From positions 1-44,719 of the forward strand of contig CADCTB010000182.1 in assembly GCA_902805665.1 (NCBI GenBank): 44,719 bases of DNA, in the 5' to 3' direction. Made by a program: the position numbers and the translations under genes. Below, in pieces: positions 1 through 11,852 of this stretch (position 1 is the first letter of the stretch; every line of letters begins with the position of its first letter). Source of the stretch: an uncultured Acidimicrobiales bacterium. GTDB taxonomy: Bacteria > Actinomycetota > Acidimicrobiia > Acidimicrobiales > AC-14. The notes beneath the pieces were generated by a model, which saw only the letters and a list, made by a program, of their open reading frames with translations, was not told the DNA's origin and searched no databases.

Positions 1-340
1 CCGGCCTGCTCCGCTCTCATCGCTTGTCCTGGTCGCTGCGCCGGCCGACCCTCGACGGCATGCCGGCAGTGGCCTTCGCTGCGCTCCGGCGGGGCCGACA
101 TGCCGGGCCGGCCTGCTCCGCTCTCATCGCTTGTCCTGGTCGCTGCGCCGGCCGACCCTCGACGGCATGCCGGCAGTGGCCTTCGCTGCGCTCCGGCGGG
201 GCCGACATGCCGGGCCGGCCTGCTCCGCTCTCATCGCTTGTCCTGGTCGCTGCGCCGGCCGACCCTCGACGGCATGCCGGCAGTGGCCTTCGCTGCGCTC
301 CGGCGGGGCCGACATGCCGGGCCGGCCTGCTCCGCTCTCA
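1..340. repeat. 107-bp tandem repeat array (3 identical units plus a 19-bp fragment)
   Basis: Units lie at 1-107, 108-214 and 215-321, with a partial copy at 322-340. By eye the three full units are identical. Each unit contains short inverted segments around GGCATGCCGGC and GACATGCCGGG, so it could fold in RNA or act as a REP-like element. The last partial copy ends on the stop codon (338-340, complement) of the neighbouring binding-protein gene, so the array lies directly downstream of that gene. The array may continue left of the window. Open frames through it on both strands are products of the repeat and GC content, not genes. No other gene is seen in this stretch. Confidence 0.9.
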
Positions 341-1351
341 TTGCGGGTAGACCGCCCGATCGGGGGGGCCGCCGGCCGCCTGGACCGCCTTCAGGGCCGA
401 CGCGTCGCCTCCCAGGCTCTCGACCATGGTCACGAAGTCGAACTTCATGAGGCCGAGCCAGGAGTGTTCGGGTTCGCCGGGGCGGCCCGGAAGGTCGTCG
501 TCACGCAAGGTGTCTACGTAGCGGACACCCGCCTCGGTGCCGATCTGGGCCAGAACCTTGCTGGGGAAGACCTCGGACCCGAAGATCGCCGGCACGCCGA
601 CCTGGCGGACCTGCTGGATCAGGCCGGCCACCTCGCGAGGGGTGGGCTCCTCGAAGCTCGACACCTGCACCGCGCCGATCACCTTCCAGCCGTACTGGCG
701 GGCGAAGTAGGCGTAGGCGTCGTGGTAGGTCAGCAGCTCCCTGCGGGGGACGGTGGCCGAGGCGGCCTTCATCGCCCCGTCGAGCTCGTCGACCTTGGCG
801 GCGAACCGCTCGTAGTTCGCCGTGTACTCACCGGCGTTGGGGGGATCGCGGCGGACGACGGTGTCGCGCACGATCCGGGCGTAGTCCTTGGCGTAGGGCG
901 GGTTGGTCCACAGGTGGGGGTTGGGCTTGCCGTCCTCCCGGGGGAACGAGAAGTCGTAGATGTACTCGTCGGGCCCGATGGTCCGGTCGCCCAGCTCCAC
1001 CACCTCGGCGCCGGCCTTGAGGTTGCCGGCCGCCAGCTCCCGGGTCGGGTCTTCCAGCTTCAGGCCGTTGACGAAGACCACGTCGGCCCGGGCCAGCGTC
1101 CGGGCCGCGCTGGGCGGGGGCTCGAAGGTGTGCGAGTTCGCCCCCTCAGGGACCAGCCCGCGCACCTCGGCCCGCTCGCCGACGACGCTCGAGACGATGC
1201 TCGTGAGCGGTGAGACGGTGGTGACGATGTTGAGCTTGGTCGGGTCGTCAGGGTCTGCGCCGGCCCCCGAACCGCACGCCGCACCCAGGAGGGCGAGCGG
1301 GAGGGCAGACGCGATGACGGCGCACCGTTGTCCCACTCCCACGTGCAGCAC
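338..1351 (-). CDS. metal ABC transporter substrate-binding lipoprotein (ZnuA/AdcA/PsaA family)
   Basis: This 337-residue protein is a cluster A-I (SBP_bac_9) solute-binding lipoprotein that delivers Zn2+ or Mn2+ to a membrane ABC importer. A lipoprotein signal ends in the lipobox LLGAAC with Cys26. The four expected metal ligands are visible: His74 (SHTFEP), His146 (NPHLW), His210 (YHDAY) and Asp280 (YVDTL). Unlike many ZnuA proteins it has no long His/Asp-rich loop, so zinc versus manganese cannot be decided. It is divergent from a Fur-family gene 47 bases away, which fits metal-dependent repression. The partner permease and ATPase genes are not in the window; the tandem repeat follows its stop codon. 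Confidence 0.92.
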   Translation of the reverse strand: MLHVGVGQRCAVIASALPLALLGAACGSGAGADPDDPTKLNIVTTVSPLTSIVSSVVGERAEVRGLVPEGANSHTFEPPPSAARTLARADVVFVNGLKLEDPTRELAAGNLKAGAEVVELGDRTIGPDEYIYDFSFPREDGKPNPHLWTNPPYAKDYARIVRDTVVRRDPPNAGEYTANYERFAAKVDELDGAMKAASATVPRRELLTYHDAYAYFARQYGWKVIGAVQVSSFEEPTPREVAGLIQQVRQVGVPAIFGSEVFPSKVLAQIGTEAGVRYVDTLRDDDLPGRPGEPEHSWLGLMKFDFVTMVESLGGDASALKAVQAAGGPPDRAVYPQ

Positions 1352-1398: not shown

Positions 1399-1827
1399 AT
1401 GCTGGTCCGGGAGCAGGCTGAGCCCATCCTGAGCATGCTGCGGGCCCGGGGCGGCAGGGTCACAACGGGCCGGCGGGCCATCCTGGAGACCTTCCTCGGC
1501 ATCGGCGGCCACGTCACGGCCGAGGCGCTCACCGCCCGGGTCCAGGCCACCCAGCCCGACGTCCACGAGTCGACCGTGTACCGCTTCCTCGACGAGCTGG
1601 AGCGGCTGAATGTGGTCGACCACGTTCACCTGGGCCACGGCCCCGCCGTCTACCACCTGGCCAGCGATGCCCACCACCACCTGGTCTGCGACAGCTGCGG
1701 GACGGTGGTGGAGGTCCCCGAGGAGCTGTTCGCCGAGCTACGCGGCAGGCTGCAGACGGACTTCGGGTTCACCCTGCGACCCCGCCACTTCGCGGTGACG
1801 GGCCGGTGCCGCGCCTGCCAGGGCTAG
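1399..1827 (+). CDS. Fur-family transcriptional repressor (Zur-like)
   Basis: This 142-residue protein has the usual Fur-family length. The N-terminal winged helix (about 10-80) contains the recognition segment HESTVYRFLDEL. The dimerisation domain has the HHHLVCDSCG motif at 92-101, and two CxxC pairs (Cys97/Cys100, Cys137/Cys140) form the structural zinc site. It acts as a cytoplasmic metal sensor that represses uptake genes when metal is abundant. Its divergent neighbour is a metal-binding lipoprotein, so a zinc (Zur) or manganese role is more likely than iron, but the sequence does not settle this. The stop codon TAG at 1825-1827 lies in a CTAG palindrome shared with the stop of the convergent cupredoxin gene. 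Confidence 0.9.
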   Translation: MLVREQAEPILSMLRARGGRVTTGRRAILETFLGIGGHVTAEALTARVQATQPDVHESTVYRFLDELERLNVVDHVHLGHGPAVYHLASDAHHHLVCDSCGTVVEVPEELFAELRGRLQTDFGFTLRPRHFAVTGRCRACQG

Positions 1828-2807
1828 CCGACCTTGACCGTGCCCTTCATCTGGGCCGGGTGAATGTCGCACTGGAACTTGTACTCACCGGCCGGCGGCG
1901 CGTGGAACTTGTAGGTGGCCGTCGCCACGCCGCTCACCAGCTGACCGCGGAAGATGGGCTTCGACGGGTCCTGGCCGAGGATGGTGATGTTGTGCTCGGT
2001 GTCGCGGTCGTTGTTGTCGAGCCGGATCTCGACCTCTTCGTCGGCCTTGAGGGTGATCGTGTCCGGCTTGAACGCGATCGCCTCCGCCTTGACCTGGACC
2101 AGCGCCGCCTCACCGCCGTGCTCCTCGGCGTGCACCTCGATGTGGCGTTCGCCGACAGCGGCGGCATACACGCCGCCTCCCACCATCAGGACGGTGCCCA
2201 TGGCCAGGATCGACGCCAGGGCCCGGCCCGAGATGCTCGGCCTCACCGCGGCGACGGACGCGGCGCCCAGCAGGACGACGCCCACGGCCAGGGCGATCAC
2301 CCACGATGCCGTCTCCGACACCGCCAGCAGGATCCGAGACAGGAAGTACATGACGCTGGCGATGGCGGTGAGGCCGAGCACCGGCAGGCCGAGGGGCAGC
2401 AGGCTGATCTCGCGCCCGGTGGTCTCGGAGGCGGCCCGGGCCAACCAGCCGGCACCGGCGGCCATGGCCACGAGCACGCCGGCCCAGGTGAAGAGGGGGT
2501 GCCAGATCAGTCCCAGCATGACCAGCGCCACCGCCAGCCCGGCCACCACGGGCCAGCCGCCACCGCCGGGAAGCGGGGCGACGGCGACCGGGCGCACGCT
2601 GGGCGGCGGCGCGTCGGCTGCCACCACGGGGGCGAGCTCGTTCTCACGCACCGTCGAGAGCATCACCCCGAGGACGAACGCCACCGCCCCGACCATCAGG
2701 AAGAGCACGGAGCCCAGCAGGTCGCCGCTGAGGATCTTGTAGAGCGCGGCCAGGAACAGGGCGACACCGGCCACGGGCAGGAAGAGCTTGGAGGTGGGAG
2801 TGAACAT
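1824..2807 (-). CDS. multi-TM membrane protein with C-terminal type-1 copper cupredoxin domain
   Basis: This 327-residue protein has about six to seven hydrophobic segments between residues 5 and 217, then an extracytoplasmic cupredoxin domain (about 235-327). The copper ligands are His272 (EHNI), Cys313, His316 and Met320 (CDIHPAQM), a mononuclear type-1 site. It is not a CuA subunit II, which has two cysteines. The first two helices resemble small actinobacterial oxidase subunits (CtaF-like), but this is weak. It is the third gene of an operon after the subunit I and III homologues, six bases downstream, so it probably receives or donates electrons for that complex. The fused membrane/cupredoxin layout in an oxidase-like operon without CtaC is unusual. 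Confidence 0.8.
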   Translation of the reverse strand: MFTPTSKLFLPVAGVALFLAALYKILSGDLLGSVLFLMVGAVAFVLGVMLSTVRENELAPVVAADAPPPSVRPVAVAPLPGGGGWPVVAGLAVALVMLGLIWHPLFTWAGVLVAMAAGAGWLARAASETTGREISLLPLGLPVLGLTAIASVMYFLSRILLAVSETASWVIALAVGVVLLGAASVAAVRPSISGRALASILAMGTVLMVGGGVYAAAVGERHIEVHAEEHGGEAALVQVKAEAIAFKPDTITLKADEEVEIRLDNNDRDTEHNITILGQDPSKPIFRGQLVSGVATATYKFHAPPAGEYKFQCDIHPAQMKGTVKVG

Positions 2808-2813
2808 GGCGCC

Positions 2814-3476
2814 CTACCCGTGCCGGCTGAGGATGAACAGGACCGTGACCACGATGAACCACACGACGTTGGTGTACTGCCAGTAGACCGCTCCCGCCCG
2901 CAGGGCGTCGTGGCGGTCGGTGGAGAAGTGGCCGGCCATGGTGCGGAACGCCAGCACCAGCACCACGACGATGGCCGCCAGCAGGTGGAGCAGGTGGTAG
3001 CCGATCAGGATGTCGTAGAGCGTCCCGTAGGTGTGGTCGTTGAAGCCGAACCCGCTCCGGACGAACGACAGCCATTCCAGGTTGGCCATGGACAAGCCGA
3101 GGAACAGCGTGAGGATCAGCGCCATCGCCGCGTTGCGGCCGTCGTTGCGGCGGGCGGCGAAGATGCCCCACTGGACGGAGAAGCCCGACATGAGCGCGGT
3201 GAGGGTGATCATCGTCGGGATGTAGGTGCCGACCTGCACGTCGGAGGGGGGCCAGGTGGTGGACCCCTCCTTGATGGCGAGATAGACGGCGACCACCGCA
3301 CCGAGCACCATGGCGTCGGCCGTCACCAGCAGCAGCGTGCCGATGGTGGAGGTCCCCCGACGTGGGCGGCCCGGGACCGGCCCGGGCAGCGGCGCGCCCG
3401 TCGGCAGGACGACCGGCGCGTCGCCGGATGCGGGAACAGGAAGGTTGTCGGTTGCCGAGACGGCGACGAGTGACAT
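2814..3476 (-). CDS. cytochrome c oxidase subunit III-like protein (CtaE family)
   Basis: This 220-residue membrane protein starts at 3476, where its ATG overlaps the stop codon of the upstream subunit I gene by one base (TGATG). The open frame runs further upstream, but that part is a shadow. A Pro-rich N-terminus (1-45) precedes about five helices. Family hallmarks include NLEW (132-135), the GYHLLH motif (159-164) and a terminal YWQYTNVVW. In typical subunit III this last motif reads WHFVDVVW, so the conserved His and Asp are replaced by Gln200 and Asn203. It has no redox centre of its own and normally stabilises subunit I. Its substitutions parallel the loss of catalytic residues in the adjacent subunit I homologue. 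Confidence 0.85.
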   Translation of the reverse strand: MSLVAVSATDNLPVPASGDAPVVLPTGAPLPGPVPGRPRRGTSTIGTLLLVTADAMVLGAVVAVYLAIKEGSTTWPPSDVQVGTYIPTMITLTALMSGFSVQWGIFAARRNDGRNAAMALILTLFLGLSMANLEWLSFVRSGFGFNDHTYGTLYDILIGYHLLHLLAAIVVVLVLAFRTMAGHFSTDRHDALRAGAVYWQYTNVVWFIVVTVLFILSRHG

Positions 3477-5203
3477 CAGGCGGTCCCTCCGTCGGACGCG
3501 AGGTCCGATTCGGACTGGCGCGAGCGGGACTGTCCGACCTGCAGGTCGAGCAGCGGCGCTCCGGAGCGGATCTCGGGAAGGGCGTCGAAGTTGTGGCGGG
3601 GCGGAGGCGAAGGCGTCGCCCACTCCAGGGTCTGTCCGCCCCACGGGTCGGCCCCGGATGCCTTGCCGCGGCCGGCGACGACGCTGCCGAGAAGATCCAG
3701 CAGGAGCACGATCAGCCCCAGGCCGACGATGGCCGCCCCGGCGGAGACCACGAGGTTCCCGATCTCCCATTCGTCGCCGGAGTCGAAGGTGGAGGTGTGC
3801 ACGAGCATGTCCTGAACGCCGAGGAGCAGCATGCCGAGCACGGTCAGGAGCGTTCCGCCCACCACCGCGAGGATCTCCAGCTTGCCCAGGGCGTCGGACA
3901 GGCGGCGGCCCCACAGCTTGGGGCCCCAGAAGCTCAGGGCGGCGACCGCGCCGATCGTCGCGGCGCCGAAGAACAGGGCGTGCTGCTGGCCCACCTGCCA
4001 GTAGTTCTCGTGGGCATCGCGGCCGGCGTCGAGCGCGGAGACCACCGACGCGGCCAGGCCCAGGGCCAGGACCGGCAACATGCCCAGCGCCCAGAGCATC
4101 GGGGTGGAGCCGAAGCCCCGGCGGAGGGCGTCACGGTCGCCCTCCTTGCCGGCCAGGCGCAGGGTGGCCAGCCAGTTGAGGATCAGCAGGGCAACCGGGG
4201 CCAGCACGGCCAGGGCGCCGAGGATGAAGAGGGGGCGGGGCCGGGACAGGTTGGTCACCTCGCTGCCCCATCCGGCGAAGCTGAGCACCCCGACGCCGAC
4301 CAAGGCGGCGGAAGCCCGGTCCCGGCTGAACAGCGGCCGTCCGGCGAACGTGGCGACGATCTCGCTGACCGCGCCCAGGGCGGGGATGACCAGCGCCCAC
4401 AGCACCGGGTAGGCCCCGAACCAGAACAGGCGGGGCCAGATGAGGGGGTTGCCGCCCCGGCTGCCGGTGAACCCGCTGAAGAGGGAGGCGCCGTAGTGCC
4501 GGTCGACGAAGAGCAGGGCGAAGGCCCCGATGAGCACCGGCAGGGCCAGGAGCAGCACCGCGCCCGAGACCATGATCGACCAGCTGAACACCGGCACCCG
4601 GCGCAGCGTCATGCCCGGCGCCCGGAGCTGCAGGATCGTCACCACGATGTTGATGACCACCAGCACCGCGGCCATACAGACCACCACCAGGCCCAGGAGG
4701 AGGAGGTCCGGCCCCCGGCCGGGGAGCCCGAGCCTCACGGGGATCGGGTCGCTCAGGGCCCAGCCGTGGAAGACGTCGGAGGCGACCGGGGCGGCGGTGA
4801 CCATGGCGGCGCCGGCGAGGAACAGCCAGAAGGACATGGCGTGCAGCCGGGGGAACGCCAGCCGGGCGGCCCCGATCTGCAGCGGCACGATGGCCGACCC
4901 CAGGCCCAGCCAGACCGGGAGCAGGAAGAGGAAGACCGAGAAGACGCCGTGCATGGTGAACAGCTGGCGATAGGTGCGGTCCCCCACGATGTCGGCGTCG
5001 GGGGTCGCCAGCTGGGCCCGCATGACGATCGAAAGGACCACTCCGGCCACCAGGAACAACAGGGCGGCGGCGACGAAGAGCGACCCGATGTACTTGTGAT
5101 CGGTGCCCTTGGGCCAGGCGTCGGGTAGGGCGGCGTCGGACTGCGGGAGGCTCGTGGCCTCGGGCTGTCCGCCCTGCTCGACCTCGGTGTCGGTCATTGC
5201 CAT
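3476..5203 (-). CDS. heme-copper oxidase subunit I homologue lacking the O2-reducing site (pseudo-CtaD)
   Basis: This 575-residue protein aligns along its length with cytochrome c oxidase subunit I. It keeps TMHG with His85 (bovine His61, heme a ligand), the RAPGMT segment, PALGAVSEI, FWGPKLWGR and His408 (bovine His378, the second heme a ligand). All catalytic positions are changed: CuB His240 to Tyr265, His290/291 to Ser314/Glu315, heme a3 His376 to Gln406, cross-linked Tyr244 to Trp269, Glu242 to Val267, K-channel Lys319 to Leu340 and D-channel Asp91 to Arg114. Frame and hydrophobicity are intact, so it is not a decayed gene. It probably binds one low-spin heme and moves electrons without reducing oxygen. 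It heads the operon with a subunit III and a membrane cupredoxin; CtaB and CtaG are adjacent. Confidence 0.85.
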   Translation of the reverse strand: MAMTDTEVEQGGQPEATSLPQSDAALPDAWPKGTDHKYIGSLFVAAALLFLVAGVVLSIVMRAQLATPDADIVGDRTYRQLFTMHGVFSVFLFLLPVWLGLGSAIVPLQIGAARLAFPRLHAMSFWLFLAGAAMVTAAPVASDVFHGWALSDPIPVRLGLPGRGPDLLLLGLVVVCMAAVLVVINIVVTILQLRAPGMTLRRVPVFSWSIMVSGAVLLLALPVLIGAFALLFVDRHYGASLFSGFTGSRGGNPLIWPRLFWFGAYPVLWALVIPALGAVSEIVATFAGRPLFSRDRASAALVGVGVLSFAGWGSEVTNLSRPRPLFILGALAVLAPVALLILNWLATLRLAGKEGDRDALRRGFGSTPMLWALGMLPVLALGLAASVVSALDAGRDAHENYWQVGQQHALFFGAATIGAVAALSFWGPKLWGRRLSDALGKLEILAVVGGTLLTVLGMLLLGVQDMLVHTSTFDSGDEWEIGNLVVSAGAAIVGLGLIVLLLDLLGSVVAGRGKASGADPWGGQTLEWATPSPPPRHNFDALPEIRSGAPLLDLQVGQSRSRQSESDLASDGGTA

Positions 5204-5352: not shown

Positions 5353-5967
5353 GTGGCCGTCGCCCTGAGCCCGCCGGTCGACACCCGGGCCGATGCCACG
5401 TTGGCCGCCCACATGGTGCAGCACGTGGTGATGACCATGGTGGCCGCGCCGCTCCTGGCCGCCGGCCTCGGCAGCGCGTGGTTCGCCAGGGTGAAGGTGC
5501 CCCGCGTGAACCCCCTGGTGGCGTGGCTGCTGTTCGCCGCCACCGGCTGGCTGGTCCACTTCACCCCCCTGTTCCAGGCCGCCACCGAGAGCCTGCCCGT
5601 CCACATGTTCGAGCACGCCGTGCTGCTGGGCAGCGGCTTCCTGTTCTGGGCCCAGGTGGTGGGGCCGGCCGCCACCATGTCCTACCCGCTGCGGCTGCTC
5701 TACCTGGTGGTGGCCATGCCCCAGAACACCTTCGTGGCCCTTGCCATCTTCTCGACCAGCCGGGTCCTGTACCCGCACTACGGGAGCGGCCCCGACGCGC
5801 TCGCCGACCAGCGCCTGGGCGGCGGGATCATGTGGGTGGCCGGGGACCTGGTCCTGCTCGCCGCCGTCCTCGTCATGGCCGCGGGCTGGGCCCGCCAGGA
5901 GGAGCGCGAGACGCGACTCAGCGAAGAAGCAGCTGATCAGCTGCCATCGCCCCGAACAGGAGGGTGA
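5353..5967 (+). CDS. ctaG: cytochrome c oxidase assembly protein CtaG (caa3_CtaG family), N-terminus uncertain
   Basis: The visible 204 residues match CtaG-type multi-helix assembly proteins, which help insert copper into oxidases: SPPVD near the start, then AHMVQH, WLVHFTPL, HMFEHAVLL, RLLYLVVAMPQNTF, LYPHYG and DQRLGGGIMW. The in-frame GTG at 5353 would cut the first membrane helix in half. The same frame stays open back to 5269 and encodes the missing helix (QPWARWCLIAGLATVAVALS) but offers no ATG, GTG or TTG. An ATG at 5306 lies out of frame by one inserted base, so a frameshift or sequence error near 5306-5312 is likely. The gene is divergent from the pseudo-oxidase operon, and its 3' end overlaps convergent ctaB by 50 bases. 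Confidence 0.75.
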   Translation: MAVALSPPVDTRADATLAAHMVQHVVMTMVAAPLLAAGLGSAWFARVKVPRVNPLVAWLLFAATGWLVHFTPLFQAATESLPVHMFEHAVLLGSGFLFWAQVVGPAATMSYPLRLLYLVVAMPQNTFVALAIFSTSRVLYPHYGSGPDALADQRLGGGIMWVAGDLVLLAAVLVMAAGWARQEERETRLSEEAADQLPSPRTGG

Positions 5968-6838
5968 TGTAGGTGATGGAGAACTTGAACAGGCGCATGG
6001 CCAGCTCCGGCCGGCGGCTGCGGGCCAGCTGGACCGCCTTCCAGGTGAACGTGCCGCCCAGGGCCATGGCCGCGGCCAGGTAGATGGCGCCCATGGAGCC
6101 GAGGGGCCAGAAGGCAAGGCTCACCGCCCACAGCACCACTGTGTAGGCGACGATCCGCTTGGCCGTGTCGTCGAAGCTGGCCACCACGGGCAGCATCGGC
6201 ACGTCGGCCGCCGCGTAGTCGGCCCGGTAGCGGATGGCCAGGGCCCAGAAGTGCGGGGGTGTCCAGACGAAGATGATGGCGAACATCACGAACGGGGCGA
6301 CGGCCAGCTCGTTGGTCACCGCCGCCCATCCGACCAGTGCGGGCACCGCCCCCGCTGCTCCTCCGATGACGATGTTCTGGGTCGACGTCCGCTTCAGCCA
6401 GATCGTGTAGACGAAGACGTAGAACAGCATGGCGGCCAGGGCCAGAGCCGCGCTGAGGGGGTTGACCACCAGGGTCAGCCAGGCGGCGGCGGCCACTTCG
6501 AGGGCGATGGCGAAGATGAGGGCGTTGCGGGGGGTGATCTCGCCCGTCACCAGCGGCCGCTTGCTGGTGCGGCGCATCAGCTTGTCGATGTCGCGGTCGA
6601 TCACCATGTTGGTGGCGTTGGCGCCGGCCGCGGCGAGCGTGCCGCCGACCAGGGTGGCCAGGACCAGCCATGCCGGGGGCATTCCCTGCTGGGCGACGAT
6701 CATGGCCGGGACGGTGGTCACCAGCAGCAGCTCGATGATCCGGGGCTTGGTGAGGGCGACGTAGGCCGCCAGCCGGCCTCGACCCGGCACCGTGACCGCC
6801 GGGACGTCGGAGCCGGTGACTGGAAGTGCCTCGGTCAT
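5918..6838 (-). CDS. ctaB: protoheme IX farnesyltransferase (heme O synthase)
   Basis: This 306-residue UbiA-superfamily membrane enzyme attaches a farnesyl group to heme b to make heme O, the precursor of heme A. The first Asp-rich motif is NATNMVIDRDIDKLMRRTSKRPL and the second is YRADYAAADVPMLP, separated by hydrophobic helices; both are typical of CtaB. Its position next to the subunit I-like gene and ctaG suggests that the complex carries an A- or O-type heme, although the enzyme could equally serve a true oxidase elsewhere. Its 3' end overlaps the end of ctaG in a convergent arrangement. The length is normal for the family. Confidence 0.93.
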   Translation of the reverse strand: MTEALPVTGSDVPAVTVPGRGRLAAYVALTKPRIIELLLVTTVPAMIVAQQGMPPAWLVLATLVGGTLAAAGANATNMVIDRDIDKLMRRTSKRPLVTGEITPRNALIFAIALEVAAAAWLTLVVNPLSAALALAAMLFYVFVYTIWLKRTSTQNIVIGGAAGAVPALVGWAAVTNELAVAPFVMFAIIFVWTPPHFWALAIRYRADYAAADVPMLPVVASFDDTAKRIVAYTVVLWAVSLAFWPLGSMGAIYLAAAMALGGTFTWKAVQLARSRRPELAMRLFKFSITYITLLFGAMAADQLLLR

Positions 6839-9041: not shown

Positions 9042-11852
9042 ATGGGTTGGTGCCACGAGTTCGGCTGCCAGATCACGAGCGGCTGCAACCATCCGATGAA
9101 GGCTGGTGCGTCGGCGTGCACGTGCCTGGTGTGCGACACCGTCTGCACCGGCAAGTTCTCCGGCTGCCCCGAGGTCTTCGCCCGGTCCGTGCCCGTCGCG
9201 GCCCCCGCCCCTGGGCCGAGCCGTCCAGTGGCCGGCACGGCGTGGGGCCAGAATGGTCCGGTGACCAATGCCGGCCCGGGCCCGAGCGGCCCTTCGAGCG
9301 GGAGGCAGGGCCCGAGCGGCCCTTCGAGCGGGGGGCACGGCCCGAGCGGCCCTTCGAGCGGGAAGCAGGGCCCGAGCGGAGGTCAGGCACCGAGCCGGCC
9401 TCCGAGCGACGCTGTTCGGCAAGGACAGTCGGTCGCCGCCCCTGGGCCGGCCGCCGCTCCTGCCGTGGCCGCGTCCGGGGAGGGCGGGGTGCTCTCCAGG
9501 GAGAACGGTGCCCGGGTGCTCCATTGGATGCGGGCCGAGTTCGACGGGGTGAAGTCCCAGCTCCACGCCATGGCCAGCAGCCTGGCCCACCAGCAGGCGC
9601 TGGTCTCCGACATGGCGGCCAATCGGACGGTGGACATGAACAGCGCCCTCGCCGAGCTCGAGGGATCGGCCACCCAGCTTCGCACCGAGGCGTCGCGCAT
9701 GCGGCGGGACGCGGGCGGCCTGCAGGAGGACGGGGCCGAGCTGCGGCGCGAGTCCGCCCGGCTCAGGGAGATCGAGCGCGACGTCAGCGAGCGGCTTCCG
9801 AAGGTCGTCGCCGAGGCGGTGCAGCCCGAGCTGCGGGCCGCGCTCCGCGACGTCGAGGCCATCACCGCCGGCCTGCGCGAGGAGGCGTCGCAGCTGCGCG
9901 CCGTGCGAGACGGCCTGCACGCCGAGCTGCCCCGGCTGGTCGAGGCGGCGGTGCGCGAGGCCATCGCCGGATTCGTGCCGGCCGCCGCACCGGTGCTTCC
10001 CGGCCCGGTGGTCACCCAGACGGCGCCCGAGGCCAACGGCTTCGCGTCCGAGCCGCAGCCGGAGCCGGTCGCCGAGGCGGGCGTCGAAGGCGCTCTGGCC
10101 GACGAGCCCACCGACGAGGTGGCCGCCCCGGCGTTCGGCGCCCCGCCGGCCGCCCGGCCGGCGCCGGTGGCTGCGGCCGACGGCGGCGTGGGCGAGGATC
10201 CACTGGCGTGCACCCTTCCCGGCCTGCTGGTGGGCCCGTCGCTGGCCCTCGGCATCAGCGACGCCCTCACGCGGGCCGGCCTTCGCCGCCGCCGCCGGCG
10301 CCGGGCCAACTCACCCTCGCCGGGGCTGCACCGTCGCGACCCCTTCGCCACCCACGTCACCCGCCGCATCGATCGCTACGCCCGGGCCCGCGCCGACCTG
10401 GCTGCGCTGCGGCCGCCCGGCCCGGCCGCCAACGGCAACGGCAAAGCCACCCCGGGGGCGAGCCCCTCCACGGTGGCCATCGGCTTCCGTGACGCAGAGG
10501 AGATCACCCTCGACCTGGCGGAGACGGGCGTCCTGGCCCTCTCGGGGCCGGCGGCGGCCGACGCGGCCCGCTACCTCGTCACCTCCTTCCTGACCCGGGC
10601 CGGCGGCGAGGGCGAGGCCCTCGTCGTGGGCGACCTGCTCCCACCCGCCCAGGTGGTCCCGGGTCTCAGCCAACCGCGGGACCTCTCCACCGCCCTGCAG
10701 CTGGCCCGGAACCGGGCCGCACGCGCCGCGCAGCCCGGAGGCGGCGCTCCGCTGGTGCTGATCGTCGCCCGGGAAGCCTCCCCCGACGAGCTGGCCGAGC
10801 TGCCACGCGTGGTCGGGGAGAACGGGGACCAGCGGGTGATGGCAGTCCTGGTCGATGCCGCTCCCGAGGGCACCGCCACCATCCGTCTGGAAGCCAACGA
10901 GCGGGTGGCCGAGGTTGCCCCGGAAGAGACCGCCGAAGCCGGTGCCGGCGAGAGCCCCGAGCCGCCCGGCACCCGCCTGGCCGGCGCCCGGCTGTACACA
11001 TTGGGCCGCGAGGCGGCGAGCGAGCTGCTGTCCGTGCTGGCCAGCTCCCGCACCGACGACGACGTGATCACCGCCGTCGTCGAGGAAGCCGAGCCCTTCG
11101 AGGTCACCATGGCCGAGTCGCCATCGGTCTCCGTGCAGCTGCTCGGCACCTACCGGATCGAGGTCGGTGGCACCGAGATCCGCGCCGGCCTGCGGGCCAA
11201 GGCCCGGGAGCTCCTGGCTTTCTACCTGCTCCACCCGGCAGGGACCACCCTCGACGCCGCGGTGGAGGCGCTGTGGCCGGAGGCCGACCCCGGGCGGGGC
11301 TCCGAGTGGTTCTGGACCGCCCTCGGCAACCTCCGCAGCCGCCTGCGGGACGCCACCGGGGAGAAGAAGCTCAAGGTGATCGAGCGCGACGGCGACCGGT
11401 ACCGCGTCGAGCCGCTGTTCGACGTCGACCTGTGGCGGCTGGAGCAGGCCCTGAGCGACGGGGCGGCCGGCCCCGACGACTTCGTGCGCGCTGCCGCGTA
11501 CGACCGGGTGGCCCAGACCTATGCGGGCGACCTGTTGGCCGGCGCGGACTGGGCCTGGGCCGAGACGCCCAGGGAGGACCTGCGCCAGCGGGTGCTCGAC
11601 GTGCAGGTGTGGCTGGGCGACATCCGTTGGGCCTCCGGCGACGCGCGGGGCTCCTGGCAGGCCCTCCAGCGGGCGGTGGAGGTCGATCCCTACGCCGAGC
11701 AGATCTACCGGCGCATCATGCGCCTGCAGTCCAAGCTGGGCCGGCCGGACGACGCAGCCGCCACCTACCGGCGCCTCCAGGCCCGGCTCCTCGAGATCGA
11801 CCTCGAGCCCACGCCCGAGAGCGAGAAGCTCCACGCCGACCTCAGCGGCTAG
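9042..11852 (+). CDS. large BTAD-type (SARP-like) regulator with Cys-rich N-terminus and coiled coil
   Basis: This 936-residue protein has five visible parts. Residues 1-45 hold eight cysteines (4, 9, 15, 26, 28, 31, 35, 42) and two histidines, resembling a metal-binding module. Residues 75-150 are Gly/Pro/Ser-rich with 10-residue repeats. Residues 150-310 are a heptad-like, Ala/Glu/Arg-rich coiled coil. Residues 480-670 are an alpha/beta region found in actinobacterial BTAD proteins ('LALSGPAAADAARYLVTSFL'). Residues 695-795 are an OmpR-like winged helix and 795-936 a TPR-like bacterial transcriptional activator domain. No transmembrane helix is obvious, whereas many relatives have TM and LysM N-termini. 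It is probably a transcriptional regulator; its signal and targets are unknown. A -10-like TAGCAT lies at 9027-9032. Confidence 0.75.
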   Translation: MGWCHEFGCQITSGCNHPMKAGASACTCLVCDTVCTGKFSGCPEVFARSVPVAAPAPGPSRPVAGTAWGQNGPVTNAGPGPSGPSSGRQGPSGPSSGGHGPSGPSSGKQGPSGGQAPSRPPSDAVRQGQSVAAPGPAAAPAVAASGEGGVLSRENGARVLHWMRAEFDGVKSQLHAMASSLAHQQALVSDMAANRTVDMNSALAELEGSATQLRTEASRMRRDAGGLQEDGAELRRESARLREIERDVSERLPKVVAEAVQPELRAALRDVEAITAGLREEASQLRAVRDGLHAELPRLVEAAVREAIAGFVPAAAPVLPGPVVTQTAPEANGFASEPQPEPVAEAGVEGALADEPTDEVAAPAFGAPPAARPAPVAAADGGVGEDPLACTLPGLLVGPSLALGISDALTRAGLRRRRRRRANSPSPGLHRRDPFATHVTRRIDRYARARADLAALRPPGPAANGNGKATPGASPSTVAIGFRDAEEITLDLAETGVLALSGPAAADAARYLVTSFLTRAGGEGEALVVGDLLPPAQVVPGLSQPRDLSTALQLARNRAARAAQPGGGAPLVLIVAREASPDELAELPRVVGENGDQRVMAVLVDAAPEGTATIRLEANERVAEVAPEETAEAGAGESPEPPGTRLAGARLYTLGREAASELLSVLASSRTDDDVITAVVEEAEPFEVTMAESPSVSVQLLGTYRIEVGGTEIRAGLRAKARELLAFYLLHPAGTTLDAAVEALWPEADPGRGSEWFWTALGNLRSRLRDATGEKKLKVIERDGDRYRVEPLFDVDLWRLEQALSDGAAGPDDFVRAAAYDRVAQTYAGDLLAGADWAWAETPREDLRQRVLDVQVWLGDIRWASGDARGSWQALQRAVEVDPYAEQIYRRIMRLQSKLGRPDDAAATYRRLQARLLEIDLEPTPESEKLHADLSG
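9281..9379 (+). repeat. 30-bp in-frame direct repeats encoding GPSGPSSG(R/G/K)(Q/H)
   Basis: Three 30-base units begin at 9281, 9311 and 9341, with a fourth partial copy at 9371-9379; they differ only in the last few bases. Since 30 is a multiple of three, each unit adds ten residues of flexible Gly-Pro-Ser linker to the BTAD protein, between its Cys-rich head and its coiled coil. Such repeats expand and contract by slippage, so linker length may vary between strains. Confidence 0.85.

Follow-up and report, generated by a model that had tools for sequence, protein, structure and literature searches.

Few proteins are known to be as constrained as subunit I of the heme-copper oxidases. The CuB histidines, the heme a3 ligand, the active-site tyrosine, and the residues of the D and K proton paths are required for oxygen reduction and proton pumping. 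In the bd-type oxidases, the CydA' subunit has lost heme ligands. It is a second-copy subunit paired with CydA in CydAA' oxidases, e.g., those of Nitrospirales (PMC12342949). The eNOR-type NO reductases have a cupredoxin as subunit II (PMC8756737). At least one superfamily classifier explicitly discards sequences that lack the six histidines (PMC3084760); surveys of this kind would therefore miss dead members.

We analyzed a 44,719-nucleotide stretch, termed the window, from an uncultured Acidimicrobiales bacterium. It encodes a paralogue of A-type cytochrome oxidase subunit I without an oxygen-reducing site, termed pseudo-CtaD (CtaD'), beside paralogues of CtaE and CtaF (CtaE' and CtaF') (Table 1). 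The pseudo-CtaD was matched by PF00115 in a Pfam search of the window open reading frames (E 4.6e-78) and aligned end to end with subunit I of solved aa3 and bo3 oxidases. Using phmmer, residues 29 to 554 aligned with subunit I of the aa3-600 quinol oxidase (E 8e-88), as did the protein with the mycobacterial-type CtaD of 6hwh. An AlphaFold model from a seven-sequence input (mean pLDDT 55, pTM 0.63) had the 12-TM COX1 fold and superposed on Rhodobacter subunit I with a Z score of 35 and an rmsd of 3.2 Å over 465 residues. Canonical CtaD has an N-terminal DHK motif and a C-terminal LEW-SPPP tail, and both are retained. The protein scored 385.6 bits against TIGR02891 (CtaD; cut-off, 670.75) and 347.1 bits against NF050116 (aa3 subunit I; cut-off, 880), the latter a threshold that one canonical bcc-aa3-type CtaD of the same genome also missed.

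Table 1. Positions of the genes and other features discussed in the text
Feature	Location	Position	Strand	Description
107-bp tandem repeat	Window	1..341		Contig end
ZnuA-like metal-binding protein	Window	338..1351	minus	PF01297, E 1.4e-62
Fur-family regulator	Window	1399..1827	plus	PF01475, E 7.6e-22; between CtaF' and ZnuA
CtaF', CtaF-like subunit IV paralogue	Window	1824..2807	minus	PF13473, E 5e-11
CtaE', CtaE-like subunit III paralogue	Window	2814..3476	minus	220 aa; PF00510, E 5.1e-19
Pseudo-CtaD (CtaD'), subunit I paralogue	Window	5203..3476	minus	575 aa, frame uninterrupted
Caa3_CtaG-family oxidase assembly factor	Window	5353..5967	plus (divergent)	PF09678, E 2.9e-42, profile 33-237
CtaB, protoheme IX farnesyltransferase	Window	5918..6838	minus	PF01040, E 4.8e-67; upstream, same strand as pseudo-CtaD
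936-aa protein	Window	9042..11852	plus	
Dead CcoN-like family	L153	4093-6219	minus	Other orders of class, no ligand His
Dead CcoN-like family	L204	988-3066	minus	Other orders of class, no ligand His
Dead CcoN-like family	L207-L216			Other orders of class, no ligand His
Dead CcoN-like genes and neighbors	L218	7849-13650		
Dead CcoN-like genes and neighbors	L220	7913-13711		
Dead CcoN-like genes and neighbors	L226	263-6080		
CtaC with extra cupredoxin	L168	1934-4843		Before canonical CtaD
CtaC with extra cupredoxin	L169	1094-4358		Before canonical CtaD
CtaC with extra cupredoxin	L171	5693-8742		Before canonical CtaD

The pair of low-spin heme ligands, H85 and H408, is present. The CuB histidine positions are occupied by Y265, S314, and E315, and the heme a3 ligand position is occupied by Q406. 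W269 stands at the active-site Tyr, leaving no cross-linked Tyr. Both proton paths are gone, with V267 at Glu242 and R114 at Asp91 (D path) and L340 at Lys319 (K path). The heme-propionate Arg pair is also lost (PRR to LVH), while Arg62, the equivalent of the oxidase Arg that binds the heme a formyl, is kept. All nine histidines (positions 36, 85, 121, 146, 236, 398, 408, 469, and 537) lie outside the CuB-ligand segments, which rules out the shifted histidines we had considered and makes an alternative CuB site unlikely. Because the CuB, a3 ligand, Tyr, and D and K residues are missing, oxygen reduction and proton pumping are excluded for this protein. The original prediction, of a full-length subunit I that keeps its fold and low-spin ligands while every one of these catalytic and proton-path residues is replaced, was thus borne out residue by residue.

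That prediction also held that there was no frameshift and that repurposing was more likely than decay, and it proposed checking whether homologues share the substitutions. The minus-strand frame is open throughout, and two further species of the genus, represented by independent MAGs, are identical at these sites (L005 [nzgw82], 85% identical overall; L006/L047 [L006 is nzgw84], 83%). A read error or frameshift is therefore ruled out. Between genomes of the genus, dN/dS (Nei-Gojobori) was 0.21 to 0.22 for pseudo-CtaD; since dS is crude at about 95% GC3, we used the canonical caa3 CtaD of the same genome pair as a matched control, which gave 0.21. These values rule out neutral decay and support repurposing. 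All 88 canonical CtaD controls from the same and neighboring loci kept their six ligand histidines.

The two genes that follow are also oxidase paralogues. CtaE' matched NF050119 below its cut-off (E 4.9e-22), and its ATG overlaps the TGA of pseudo-CtaD by one base (TGATG). CtaF' has approximately three extra TM helices, for about seven predicted in total, and a C-terminal cupredoxin domain with a predicted type-1 copper site (His272, Cys313, His316, and Met320), which agrees with the cupredoxin link suggested earlier for this lineage. It is the N-terminal part of CtaF' that matches CtaF, the CtaF' family HMM scoring 38.7 bits on the genome's own canonical CtaF. PF12270 matched 4 of 26 CtaF' members at E values up to 1 (best, 6.9e-5), the window member not being among them. 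An AlphaFold model of CtaF' showed seven helices and a sheet at low confidence (mean pLDDT 47), and our fold claims are not based on it. Neither these neighbors, nor the order-wide family, nor the tie to caa3 oxidase described below figured in the original prediction.

We found 74 pseudo-CtaD genes in many families of one Acidimicrobiia order. About 75 loci were fetched and read with HMMs, and one (L124, 276 bits) was dropped because it is a canonical gene truncated by the end of its contig. Among 397 genomes from the order, CtaF' profiles gave matches in 256. A class-wide protein search had shown only canonical CtaD beyond the genus, implying a family confined to it; this was rejected once the CtaF' profile found distant members, which the protein search had missed because canonical paralogues outscored them. 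No member keeps the CuB His-His pair or the K-path Lys (0/74 each); the first CuB His alone is kept in six of the 74 and the D-path Asp in four. The heme a3 His survives in 12 of the 72 members in the tree, none of them the window pseudo-CtaD. Replacements vary by lineage: the window's family has Tyr-Ser-Glu-Gln, another group has Arg-Ala-Gly and in many cases retains the a3 His, and Gln is frequent elsewhere.

All pseudo-CtaD proteins formed one clade (FastTree support, 1.0; IQ-TREE SH-aLRT, 95.4). Long branches could favor grouping, but a single origin is supported by the gene order that the members have in common. In both trees the clade was sister to bcc-aa3-type CtaD and not to the adjoining caa3 CtaD, so a heterodimer with the latter would not be a simple homodimer relic. 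The median root-to-tip distance was 0.65 in the canonical sister, compared with 1.6 in pseudo-CtaD with the cupredoxin and 2.6 in pseudo-CtaD without it. Branches some 2.5 to 4 times as long as those of the canonical sister clade, together with metal sites lost many times over, are what slow decay of a redundant oxidase copy might produce. However, a dN/dS equal to that of active CtaD and the order-wide retention of open frames, gene overlap, and operon position make such decay highly improbable.

The cupredoxin is present on CtaF' in 26 of the 74 members and lost in 48. The low-spin His pair is kept in 24/26 cupredoxin-bearing members versus 6/48 without a cupredoxin, a contrast weaker than the raw numbers since much of it comes from one large clade. 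By Dollo counts within the clade, the cupredoxin was lost twice and the a3 His 13 times. The low-spin His pair was lost eight times; seven of these losses fall on branches without the cupredoxin and one on branches with it. Strict coupling of cupredoxin and heme is weakened by the two versus eight losses and by a related pair of members, L095 and L102, that kept the cupredoxin and lost the His pair. Retention of the His pair over long branches in cupredoxin-bearing lineages suggests that one low-spin heme and one type-1 copper are bound there.

These sites could mean that the module is an independent one-heme redox complex outside caa3, with electrons passing between the type-1 cupredoxin and the low-spin heme of CtaD', e.g., as a link that joins a quinol or bc complex to a soluble carrier. 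The low-spin histidines are retained mostly with the cupredoxin, as is the Arg62 equivalent (17 of 30 bis-His members), and the place expected for CuA is taken by a type-1 copper domain. Yet 48 of the 74 members lack the cupredoxin, most of those lack the His pair as well, and their modules still stand beside caa3; moreover, no second redox center for electron exit is visible. We therefore regard this reading as quite unlikely. The one-heme electron carrier proposed originally suits this genus and roughly one-third of the family. The family as a whole cannot be maintained for that function, because in most members the cupredoxin and at least one of the low-spin histidines are gone and the module is still found next to caa3. 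The loss of metal sites in derived lineages indicates that what the entire family keeps is not redox chemistry.

In each of the 74 loci, pseudo-CtaD is followed by CtaE' and then by a CtaF' that has the three additional helices, and the usual order is ctaD'-ctaE'-ctaF'-ctaC-ctaD-ctaE. CtaD' and CtaE' overlap (TGATG, TAATG, ATGA, or GTGA) in 65 of the 74. Where all genes lie on one contig (64 loci), the CtaC stop is within 1.5 kb of the CtaF' stop in 53, leaving room for ctaC alone, and a further ten could fit one small additional gene (TlpA-like in L048). Only the window genus has a larger insert, a metal ABC transporter between CtaF' and ctaC (gene order in L005/L047).

With NF050116 as a probe, bcc-aa3-type CtaD scores about 710 to 846 bits, the caa3 type scores about 540 to 655, and pseudo-CtaD scores below 380. 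A caa3-type CtaD was present in all 54 sampled genomes with the module (in G187, G414, and G429 solely as fragments or with a frameshift), while the bcc-aa3 type was absent from 37 of them. Conversely, of 55 genomes in the order that lacked a full CtaF' match, 54 had the bcc-aa3 type (two fragments in G393) and none had a clear caa3-type CtaD, with one 568-bit hit of uncertain type in G344. This co-occurrence is not independent of linkage, because the genes lie in one operon. Elsewhere in the class, other orders have caa3 operons that lack pseudo-CtaD (L154-L172); thus, caa3 does not generally need the module.

Since the sites are lost and the three-gene module nonetheless stays beside caa3, its common function should be structural or regulatory, with caa3 the natural partner. 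We lean toward the dead CtaD'-CtaE'-CtaF' module being an accessory protomer of the neighboring caa3 oxidase, a physical association that we infer, in which it would have a scaffolding, docking, or regulatory role. In the lineage of the window, the module probably still binds one low-spin heme (His85/His408) and one type-1 copper, and it may feed electrons to caa3; in derived lineages, where the heme and copper sites are both gone or going, it would persist there without them. A bolder version, which we put forward tentatively and think may well not hold, is an order-wide hetero-oligomeric oxidase in which the dead core is the obligate partner of active caa3, beginning as an electron-feeding one-heme, one-copper protomer and later becoming a metal-free scaffold.

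Gene order alone is also compatible with an assembly factor, i.e., a module that holds CtaC, heme, or copper during caa3 biogenesis and is not part of the finished enzyme. CtaB and CtaG are encoded nearby in the window, CtaA and TlpA-like genes occur in other loci, and the Fur-family regulator and metal transporter genes are inserted in the window genus. These biogenesis genes also flank ordinary oxidase operons, however, and a copy of three structural subunits with overlapping genes is more than a chaperone needs. An assembly role thus seems unlikely, and the accessory protomer remains our preferred reading.

The match of the CtaG-family gene to its profile leaves out roughly the 32 N-terminal positions, and the two other species of the genus have a similarly short gene. 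Farther along the window, a 936-aa protein has a Cys-rich N terminus, nearly identical by eye in both other species, and a C terminus that by eye resembles SARP/BTAD-type regulators.

The canonical CtaD and CtaC that the original prediction proposed to look for were present in the window genome (G000), three of each. The three CtaD genes lie on contigs C216, C89, and C49; that on C216 is of the bcc-aa3 type and by eye adjoins a QcrB-like gene. All three CtaC proteins have the CuA motif, and those on C89 and C49 each carry a cytochrome c domain. The tandem repeat at the left end of the window matches, at 98% identity, the right end of C89, the contig with a canonical caa3 ctaC-ctaD-ctaE, so this operon very likely lies on the next contig. 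In a relative (G225), the module and the canonical caa3 operon are on one contig.

In another order of the same class, we observed a dead C-type (CcoN-like) subunit I directly before ctaC-ctaD-ctaE (G012), the slot of the pseudo-CtaD module. All six ligand histidines of this protein are gone, and helices and a type-1 cupredoxin of the same kind are fused to it. A relative occurs in G006, and ten further His-less CcoN-like proteins were read in the class; those whose surroundings were read lie away from caa3. As this family is independent of pseudo-CtaD, dead heme-copper subunits arose at least twice in the class, and twice they came to lie beside caa3. By eye, dead CcoN-like genes in L218, L220, and L226 adjoin Rieske-, ferredoxin-, and cytochrome b-like genes in what looks like an unusual bc-type complex. 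Separately, L168, L169, and L171 have a CtaC with COX2 and an extra cupredoxin before canonical CtaD (Pfam run on L168 and L171), and the L171 CtaD has HPAVY in place of HPEVY.

A dead family under strong selection across an order implies that this fold has a role without oxygen chemistry. The natural series of members that kept or lost the a3 ligand, heme site, and copper domain offers a way to ask what the fold is worth without metals. Pfam does not tell pseudo-CtaD from ordinary CtaD, and in annotation these genes would pass for extra terminal oxidases. The original prediction knew of no described family of this type, and we found none in the open-licence PMC literature searched. As far as we can tell, the fold and the neighboring oxidase are known and the dead three-subunit module is new.

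Like CydAA', the module would place a second-copy subunit in a terminal oxidase, although CydAA' belongs to an unrelated superfamily and the pairing with caa3 is one that we infer. It resembles eNOR in combining a heme-copper subunit I with a cupredoxin, but NO reductases keep the heme-metal active site and pseudo-CtaD does not. With the caa3 oxidase (CtaC with cytochrome c, CtaD, and CtaE) it shares a locus and, in sampled genomes of the order, co-occurrence, whereas the caa3 CtaD is fully canonical and belongs to a separate clade. The aa3 oxidase of the bcc-aa3 supercomplex (CtaD/CtaE/CtaF; NF050116, NF050119, and PF12270) is the sister clade, with the same three subunits, the same fold (pseudo-CtaD model versus 6adq, Z 34.6, rmsd of 3.8 Å over 480 residues), and the low-spin heme ligands that pseudo-CtaD keeps in this lineage. 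Unlike that enzyme, pseudo-CtaD is without CuB, the a3 ligand, the Tyr, and the D and K paths, and the module is without a CtaC of its own and has a CtaF' that carries a type-1 cupredoxin.
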